A DNA stretch of 48,560 nucleotides, from positions 1-48,560 of the forward strand of contig JAJTCQ010000017.1 of NCBI GenBank assembly GCA_021323315.1, given 5' to 3'. The notes beneath the pieces were generated by a model that made no database searches, had not been told where the DNA came from, and worked only from the letters and a program-made list of their open reading frames with translations. Positions within the stretch are counted from its first letter, which is position 1; every line of letters begins with the position of its first letter. Positions 21,569 through 23,065 of this stretch are shown here, one piece after another. The stretch is from Gaiellaceae bacterium. GTDB lineage: Bacteria; Actinomycetota; Thermoleophilia; Gaiellales; Gaiellaceae. Position numbers and translations under genes: made by a program.

Positions 21569-21575
21569 ATTCGTA

Positions 21576-21649
21576 TCGGGGTGCCCAGATTTGAACTGGG
21601 GGCCTCTCCGACCCGAACGGAGCGCGCTACCAGGCTGCGCCACACCCCG
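21576..21649 (-). tRNA. tRNA-Pro (CGG)
   Basis: A 74-nt tRNA on the - strand. Acceptor stem CGGGGTG pairs with CACCCCG, discriminator A; D-arm GCGCAGCCTGGTAGCGC; anticodon arm CTCCG-TTCGGGT-CGGAG with anticodon CGG, reading proline codon CCG; T-arm with GTTCAAATC. No encoded CCA. A TACCCT hexamer on the - strand (21664-21659) is placed to be its -10. Confidence 0.97.
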
Positions 21650-21658
21650 AGCGCGGAC

Positions 21659-21670: not shown

Positions 21671-21700
21671 TTGCGCAGCGTCGGCGGCCCGGAGTATGCT
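21671..21700 (+). promoter_or_regulatory. promoter of the attenuator leader
   Basis: TTGCGC (21671-21676) and TATGCT (21695-21700) are separated by 18 bp. The expected start is about 21707, immediately before the ATG of a 10-codon leader frame at 21708. Confidence 0.5.
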
Positions 21701-21707
21701 CAGGTGG

Positions 21708-21740
21708 ATGACTGTTGCTCTCGAGAGGCGGGCTGCTTGA
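21708..21740 (+). CDS. putative leader peptide, 10 residues
   Basis: The frame ATG(21708) to TGA(21738-21740) encodes MTVALERRAA. It begins 7 nt after a -10 hexamer, as in the leaderless genes of this window, and its stop codon lies in the loop of hairpin 1 of the attenuator. Two adjacent Arg and two adjacent Ala codons at the end could respond to charged tRNA supply. Real translation is not proven; a 10-codon frame can occur by chance. Confidence 0.35.
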   Translation: MTVALERRAA

Positions 21741-21805
21741 CCCGCCCCGACAGCGAATGACCCGCAGCCCGACGTGCGCGAACCGCGCCGGCGGGCTTTT
21801 TCTTT
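21727..21805 (+). promoter_or_regulatory. putative transcription attenuator
   Basis: Three mutually exclusive pairings are possible. Hairpin 1: GGCGGG (21727-21732) with CCCGCC (21741-21746). Antiterminator: CGGGCTGC (21729-21736) with GCAGCCCG (21764-21771), 8 perfect pairs. Terminator: AGCCCG (21766-21771) with CGGGCT (21792-21797), plus an inner GCGCG/CGCGC stem, followed by T5CT3. The antiterminator shares bases with both hairpins. A leader peptide and a small HTH gene flank it. Confidence 0.5.
21766..21804 (+). terminator. intrinsic terminator of the attenuator
   Basis: Outer stem AGCCCG/CGGGCT, inner stem GCGCG/CGCGC (21776-21780/21784-21788), AAC loop, then TTTTTCTTT. It is the best intrinsic terminator seen in the window and lies 30 bp before the ATG of the HTH gene. 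Confidence 0.65.
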
Positions 21806-21834
21806 GCCGTTTTCTTGACCCCTGAGGAGGCAGC

Positions 21835-22014
21835 ATGGCCAACCACCTGACGCCCGAAGAGCTCGCCAAGGAGATGGGGATGGACCGCGACGAGGTCGTC
21901 CGAATCTGCATCGAGGAGGGCGTGCCGATCTATCACGGCAAGGTCGACAAGACCCTCTTCCAGGCGACGCTCGAGGCCGTCGGAGCTACGGCCGGAGCCT
22001 CGACCTCGTCCTGA
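21835..22014 (+). CDS. small helix-turn-helix protein, 59 residues
   Basis: Short protein that starts MANHLTPEELAKEMGMDRDE. The pattern of a helix (TPEELAKEMG), turn and recognition-like helix (DEVVRICIEEG), followed by PIYHGKVDKTLF, resembles the N-terminal HTH of MerR/excisionase-like proteins or the N-terminal helical domain of IF-2. DNA binding is therefore likely but unproven. A strong Shine-Dalgarno GAGGAGG precedes the ATG, unlike many neighbours. Located directly behind the attenuator, so its expression is probably controlled by termination. Confidence 0.75.
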   Translation: MANHLTPEELAKEMGMDRDEVVRICIEEGVPIYHGKVDKTLFQATLEAVGATAGASTSS

Positions 22015-22107
22015 ATCCGCTGCCGCCGGAGGGCGCGCTCGTTCGACGGCCGTGAAGCTCGACCAGGTCATGGTGGCTGCACCTACTCTCGGAACACCGG
22101 CCGCGCT

Positions 22108-22959
22108 CTAGCTGGCCTTGGCGCGCGCTTTCCGTGCGCGCGTCCGCTTCTCGGCTGGCTCGGCGTCCGGCTTCTTGGCCGCGGCGACGCTCGCCTTGAG
22201 CGCCTCCATGAGGTCGATCACCGGAGCGACCTCGGTCGGCTCCGGCGCCACGATCTCCTCGCCGCGCGTCTTCGCCTCGAGCAGCGCCTTCAGATCACGC
22301 CGGTACTCGCTCGCGAGCTCGGTCGGCTCGAAGTCGCCTGCGAGGCTGTCGATGACCTGACGCGCGAGGTCGAGCTCGGTCTTCTTCACCTTCGTCTCCT
22401 CGACCGCCTCTGAGATCTCCGCCGACGAGTAGACGTCCTCGGCGAGGAAGAGCGTCTCGAGCGCGAGCGCGTCGCCCCGCGCGCGGACGAGGCACAGGCT
22501 CTCCCGACCCGCGCGAACGAAGCGCCCCAGCGCGGCGGTCTCGGTCTGCTGCATCGCCTCGAGCAGGAGGACGTACGGGCGACGCTGCGCGGGCTGTGCC
22601 GCGGGTACGAGGTAGTACGTTCGGTCGAAGAAGATCGGGTCGACGTCGTCCGCCTTGACGAACCGGGTGATATCGATCGAGCGCGAGTCGTCGGCGCGCT
22701 CGATCGCCTCGAGATCGGCGTCCTCGACGACGACGAACTGGCCCTTGGTGACCTCGAACCCGCGGACGATCTCGTCCTGCGTGACCTCTCGGTCGTGTGT
22801 GGGGCACCAGCGCTTCTGCTTGATCGGCGTCGCGCACTCGCGGTGGAGCAGCCGGAACGACACGTCCGACTGGCGCGCCGCCGGCTTCGTTGCCGGCGCG
22901 AGGCCGACGGGGATGGAGACGAGGCCGAAGCTGAGTGATCCGTTCCAGGTAGTCCGCAT
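22108..22959 (-). CDS. ku: non-homologous end-joining protein Ku
   Basis: Prokaryotic Ku of 283 residues that binds DNA ends and recruits LigD. Begins MRTTWNGSLSFGLVSIPVGL, the hallmark Ku start, and carries SFRLLHRECATPIKQKRWCP, the central beta-barrel region with VDPIFFDRTYYLVP, and a Lys/Arg/Ala-rich C-terminal tail that probably contacts DNA. I chose the ATG at 22959; the upstream frame lacks conserved residues. No ligD gene is seen nearby; ligA at 28-30 kb is the NAD-dependent replication ligase. Confidence 0.95.
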   Translation of the reverse strand: MRTTWNGSLSFGLVSIPVGLAPATKPAARQSDVSFRLLHRECATPIKQKRWCPTHDREVTQDEIVRGFEVTKGQFVVVEDADLEAIERADDSRSIDITRFVKADDVDPIFFDRTYYLVPAAQPAQRRPYVLLLEAMQQTETAALGRFVRAGRESLCLVRARGDALALETLFLAEDVYSSAEISEAVEETKVKKTELDLARQVIDSLAGDFEPTELASEYRRDLKALLEAKTRGEEIVAPEPTEVAPVIDLMEALKASVAAAKKPDAEPAEKRTRARKARAKAS

Positions 22960-23065
22960 GTGCAGGGAAGGGTATATGCGTGGGGGGCAGACTTCGGTCT
23001 GACGCCGACTGGCTTTCGCCCTTGAGTCGGCCAATTTCTCGCTCGAACGGCGAATCCCTCTCGTC

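Follow-up and report, generated by a model that had tools for sequence, protein, structure and literature searches.

In the trpL leader of Escherichia coli, the leader frame stops at a UGA within the first hairpin, and an intrinsic terminator follows. In the pyrBI leader of the same bacterium, the leader open reading frame (ORF) overlaps the terminator, and a ribosome close by blocks that terminator. The small actinobacterial regulator whiB7/wblC is under attenuation by an upstream ORF (uORF), with termination as the default (PMC11550727, PMC13236596). Mycobacterial polycysteine short ORFs (sORFs), which are leaderless, attenuate the gene downstream of them (Canestrari 2020, as cited in PMC9031893 and PMC13236596). 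With these precedents, the attenuation layout as such is already known, and the statement in a preliminary description of the present locus, that no case of its layout had been described, is too strong.

Here we analyse an element upstream of the gene for a 59-residue winged helix-turn-helix (HTH) protein in a soil actinobacterium of the class Thermoleophilia and in its relatives. The window, by which we mean the whole stretch of 48,560 nucleotides under analysis, comes from a contig (C5) of a 1.5-Mb genome that is 53% complete. The promoter, the 10-codon frame, the stems, the terminator, the ribosome-binding site, and the 59-codon gene of the preliminary description were all recovered base for base and are collected in Table 1. 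We read the element as a ribosome-controlled transcription attenuator that works without the three-stem switch proposed for it, and give this reading odds of roughly two in three. What survives of the original attenuation proposal is a conserved unit of leader frame, hairpin, terminator, and HTH gene; the three-stem switch does not survive.

Table 1. Features of the leader and of the gene that follows it (positions in the window)
Feature	Position	Strand	Details
Promoter	21671..21700	+	-35 TTGCGC 21671-21676; 18-nt spacer with conserved CGTC box; -10 TATGCT 21695-21700
Leader ORF, MTVALERRAA	21708..21740	+	ATG 7 nt after -10; ATG ACT GTT GCT CTC GAG AGG CGG GCT GCT TGA; stop UGA at 21738-21740; predicted to be translated
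Stem 1, stop-codon hairpin	21727-21732 / 21741-21746	+	GGCGGG / CCCGCC; UGA in loop; covariation
Proposed antiterminator	21729-21736 / 21764-21771	+	CGGGCUGC / GCAGCCCG; 8 bp, this species only; outside the conserved element
Intrinsic terminator and U tract	21766..21805	+	AGCCCG 21766-21771 / CGGGCU 21792-21797, then TTTTTCTTT
Ribosome-binding site of the regulated gene	21824..21830	+	GAGGAGG
59-residue winged-HTH gene (BldC / IF2_N-like domain)	21835..22014	+	Core single-copy gene of the class

The nearest regulator case is whiB7/wblC, the nearest leaderless case is the polycysteine sORFs, and the nearest hairpin layout is trpL. As at whiB7/wblC, a short leader ORF and a Rho-independent terminator stand ahead of a small actinobacterial regulator, and termination would be the default; here, however, the gene belongs to another family (the 59-residue protein gave no WhiB match and is a winged HTH instead), the ORF is in a putatively leaderless position, its stop, always UGA, sits in a hairpin that covaries, and a search for a conserved antiterminator found none. 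The polycysteine sORFs likewise place a leaderless short ORF ahead of a gene; as outlined in the sources cited above, they carry Cys runs, serve cysteine genes, and act by translational attenuation, whereas the present leader lacks any amino-acid run and is followed by an intrinsic terminator. With trpL the locus shares a UGA in the first hairpin and an intrinsic terminator downstream, and it differs in its predicted leaderless start and in having neither a conserved 2:3-type antiterminator nor Trp-like regulatory codons. Likeness to pyrBI is limited to the version of the leader in family f7, discussed below; the window's family has the opposite geometry. An Rfam scan of the region matched no leader or riboswitch model, and the only hit above threshold was the neighbouring tRNA.

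The leader frame is conserved among relatives. We compared 71 distinct leaders of the same family, each ahead of an orthologue of the 59-residue protein and taken from the upstream sequence of every orthologue fetched; 5 more loci fall outside this set because of a -10 pattern mismatch or insertions, and at least 2 of those retain the leader ORF. In 71/71 leaders the start codon (ATG in 66, GTG in 5) lies 5-10 nt past the -10 hexamer, and a frame of 8-10 codons ending in UGA occupies this presumed leaderless position, compared with 1.5% of dinucleotide shuffles. The conservation expected of the frame in the preliminary description is thereby borne out. Length varies among relatives by whole codons. 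The peptide sequence drifts and differs between clades; frame, length, and stop are retained.

The composition of the peptide points away from an amino-acid sensor. No conserved run of regulatory codons was found when relatives were compared across clades, and the Arg and Ala codons that end the window's leader frame do not form one. Arginine makes up 21% of the peptides, against 15% expected, and tracks the sequence of stem 1: the codon follows changes in the stem, from CGG to CCG or CAG. Sensing of a specific amino acid was considered and is not supported, with the peptide poorly conserved and no sensor codon visible. Since there is no run of regulatory codons, the element falls outside the amino-acid-sensing, trp-type leaders.

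The stop codon of the leader behaves differently from those around it. The leader frame stops at UGA in 71/71 cases, a count drawn from lineages that are not fully independent, whereas the long flanking frames at the same loci stop at TAG in 121 cases, TGA in 49, and TAA in 21, and the regulated winged-HTH gene stops at TAG in 45, TGA in 14, and TAA in 11. UAG is the commonest stop in these GC-rich genomes (flanks of L002-L090). The leader's bias persists even where stem 1 is weak. This invariant UGA in loci dominated by UAG is new here; a possible role for release factor 2 or for slow termination is the sole explanation at hand. A UGA that is invariant and located in a hairpin could also reflect read-through or recoding that joins the leader to downstream sequence, which we hold to be extremely improbable: beyond the UGA, the reading frame stays open as far as the U tract in 54/71 leaders, against 49/71 for frame +1, a second stop follows within 10 nt in several leaders, and the gene shares the leader's frame in 24/71, the chance level.

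Two hairpins evolve as paired structures. Across 52 aligned leaders, double changes in stem 1 number 40, compared with 13.8 in shuffles (0/500), a signal that breaks down once one arm slides by one column. The terminator hairpin also covaries in these leaders, and its U tract is nearly invariant within the family. An own-versus-cross test, which allows for relatedness, set pairing within a leader against pairing between clusters for the 59 leaders in which stem 1 is clear. Across 26 clusters, which are not fully independent lineages and whose p-values are indicative, own pairing was better by 3.55 kcal/mol for stem 1 (23/26 clusters, p=9e-6) and by 1.66 kcal/mol for the terminator (22/26 clusters, p=2e-4).

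The same tests bear on the switch of the preliminary description, in which three stems compete, namely stem 1, the terminator, and an antiterminator that pairs the 5' arms of these two, with ribosomes stalling at Arg and Ala codons. All three stems are present in the window, and among relatives pairing is possible in 65% of the antiterminator cells, CGGG and CCCG being common. Covariation of the antiterminator across the 52 aligned leaders is nevertheless below its shuffles, and own pairing has no advantage over cross pairing (p=0.62, 26 clusters). Of the 8 bp in the window's species, seven congeners keep 3-5 bp, and a fold of the window's leader forced to contain the antiterminator reaches -31.3 kcal/mol, against -44.5 kcal/mol for stem 1 plus terminator, 13 kcal/mol weaker. 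Of the three stems for which covariation had been sought, two therefore pass and the antiterminator, though it exists in the sequence and shares bases with both others, does not; we regard the three-stem switch as very unlikely. Other pairings fare similarly: coevolution was detected neither between the stem 1 3' arm and the terminator 3' arm (p=0.39) nor between the linker and either terminator arm (p=0.92, 0.17) across the 26 clusters. Because stem 1 and the terminator covary and the alternatives tested do not, the conserved machine consists of two independent hairpins. The ON-state pairings covered were the proposed antiterminator, the other arm pairings, and the linker pairings; a different kind of structure may exist.

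Two features of an attenuator, a conserved leader frame (71/71 against 1.5%) and an intrinsic terminator between ORF and gene, are thus present; a third, an alternative antiterminator, was looked for in the relatives' leaders and not found. When leaders were folded at equilibrium under a simulated ribosome mask, the terminator stayed at about 0.8-0.9 whatever the state, with few exceptions. About 10 leaders, mostly of one clade, open the terminator when the ribosome masks only the stem 1 5' arm; pairing of the stem 1 3' arm with the terminator 3' arm can open the terminator in about 10 leaders at equilibrium. About 26-38 nt separate the U tract from the gene's ATG in most leaders, which leaves no space for a second promoter.

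Judged by comparison of sequences, what is conserved is the position and length of the frame, its UGA, stem 1, the terminator, and their link to the gene. From this pattern we infer the start at the AUG, the translation of the leader, the control of termination and its direction, the role of pausing, the signal, and the function of the protein. The transcript would begin at the leader AUG or immediately ahead of it. A ribosome would initiate at the bare 5' end, read 8-10 codons, and halt at the UGA, which the stem 1 loop holds. After it has finished, the terminator, 21-44 nt downstream, would lie beyond its footprint and fold, so that the transcript ends after about 95 nt; only transcripts that run beyond the terminator would serve to express the winged-HTH gene. 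The most likely role of stem 1 is that of the trp 1:2 hairpin: it would hold RNA polymerase until the ribosome comes, and it would also sequester two GC-rich arms otherwise able to invade the terminator. Read-through would be expected upon ribosome stalling or slow termination in the leader, so that the gene would report translation status and not one amino acid. Four observations stand against attenuation: no competing antiterminator coevolves, masked folding mostly keeps the terminator, the poorly conserved peptide shows no specific sensor codon, and families f8, f10, and f11 lack the leader, retaining the gene with a promoter directly upstream.

Other families of the class carry variants of the leader. 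Families f2 and f3, of the same order, retain leaders of 8 codons and the terminator, with a weak stem 1; one leader stops at UAG. In family f5, leaders are mostly of 9-12 codons and stop mostly at UGA, with some UAG; a second hairpin before the gene is kept, mostly without a U tract (L168-L172, L194, L228-L238), and may serve as a non-canonical terminator or work at the level of translation. In family f7 (L174-L178, L192, L193, L220, L222-L227), the leaderless frame meets or over-runs the terminator in 14/14 leaders, against 0/14 and 5/14 for the other two frames. ORF length follows the position of the terminator, and two leaders with the terminator near the start have short frames. Because the frame reaches the terminator, a translating ribosome should block the terminator there, as in pyrBI. 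In the window's family the leader stop is always 21-44 nt short of the terminator, and the over-running ORF of f7 implies the opposite polarity. The f7 leader, new to this report, implies terminator read-through by translating ribosomes, and its geometry is strong evidence, and the strongest argument we have, for a functional link of leader translation and terminator in the history of this gene.

The f7 leaders also bear on the possibility that the product proper is the short RNA (about 95 nt), as a small RNA or a micropeptide RNA, with the downstream gene expressed by leakage. A strong promoter, a compact two-hairpin RNA, and a strong terminator would suit such a product, yet the f7 ORF is built to reach the terminator, which is sensible only for control in cis. 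A covariance-model search (CM R1) for the leader as a multi-locus element placed it essentially at the winged-HTH gene only; the additional matches inspected are weak and resemble generic terminators. Peptide and linker sequences are not conserved either, and we judge a short-RNA product distinctly unlikely.

A narrower form of the attenuator reading makes it specific to the stop codon: termination would be by release factor 2 only, the dwell of a leaderless ribosome at the hairpin UGA would set transcription of the gene, and the class would hold two opposite solutions, with the leader short of the terminator in the window's family and through it in f7. We put this forward tentatively and consider it unlikely.

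The regulated protein is a core protein of its class. It was matched in 49/61 relatives, including 24/24 near-complete ones, with one match each; the ten weakest of the 49 (E about 1e-4, 44% identity) are from genus g32, and most of them fall within frames of nearly 780 codons; we read one such frame and recognised it as IF2. A profile search found the protein in 146/191 near-complete genomes of the class, and in a phylum-wide sample it occurs in 21/296, all in this class. AlphaFold predicts a winged HTH with fair confidence (pLDDT 84). The nearest folds are BldC, the IF2 N-domain, RacA, and phage Xis, every score being weak: the top Foldseek match, BldC, has E 0.15 and TM 0.56, and a fold comparison with BldC / MerR-type HTH gives a VIA Z of 5.6. 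The best Pfam matches, IF2_N (1.3e-4) and HTH_17 (5.7e-4), are weak as well; at E up to 1 they match 19/31 and 15/31 family members, respectively, and IF2_N (PF04760) gives the window protein 17 bits, below the gathering cut-off of 25.3. By hhalign, there is a 94.5% probability of a match to one IF2 N-terminus. The protein probably shares the winged-HTH fold with the BldC and IF2_N domains; all sequence and fold scores are weak (Foldseek E of at least 0.15), and we treat it as a distinct class-specific family. DNA binding is plausible. That the protein is an N-domain split off IF2 was considered and rejected, as IF2 retains its own IF2_N domain(s). IF2 carries one IF2_N domain in the window's family (G006, G011, G015, G024, G028) and two in f5, f7, and f8 (G067, G142, G074).

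The promoter offers a possible site for such a protein. Its logo across the 71 relatives conserves TTGC, the (C)CGTC box, and TATnCT, and the CCGTC box, conserved between -35 and -10 in the window and its relatives, could be a candidate operator. The strict composite motif occurs in 5/41 genomes, always 5' of the winged-HTH gene and nowhere else. The winged-HTH protein might regulate its own gene by binding this box or stem 1, with the leader ORF secondary; a conserved box that turned up at no other locus in the genomes searched, a covarying RNA stem that could be a protein site, and a BldC-like fold are in keeping with this idea. Autoregulation leaves unexplained, however, the constant codon frame, the exclusive use of UGA, and the geometry of f7, and we consider it quite unlikely as the main explanation. 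Autoregulation and attenuation are compatible, not mutually exclusive. A GTCC resembling the box seems to be present at the gene's promoter in leader-free families too.

Several neighbours adjoin the element. A divergent tRNA-Pro(CGG) gene (21575-21650, - strand) begins at a distance of about 20 bp from the -35 box of the leader promoter, so that the tRNA promoter must overlap the leader promoter. This divergent layout is retained in several congeners. The tRNA was considered as a component of the system and rejected: its distance and orientation vary, and many relatives have no nearby copy. Immediately downstream of the winged-HTH gene, and convergent with it, lies a gene for a Ku-domain protein (22108-23034; PF02735, E 7.5e-42). 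A minus-strand ORF of 123 aa (21700-22071), without a Pfam match, is antisense to the leader and the winged-HTH gene.

If the attenuator reading is true, environmental actinobacteria of the class Thermoleophilia would control a core, class-specific small protein through leaderless translation that decides transcription termination. One gene would then provide a natural comparative series, with a leader ending before the terminator, a leader overlapping it, and no leader, in which the direction of control by the ribosome, and the part that the stop codon plays, become directly testable. The invariant UGA is a sharp constraint.
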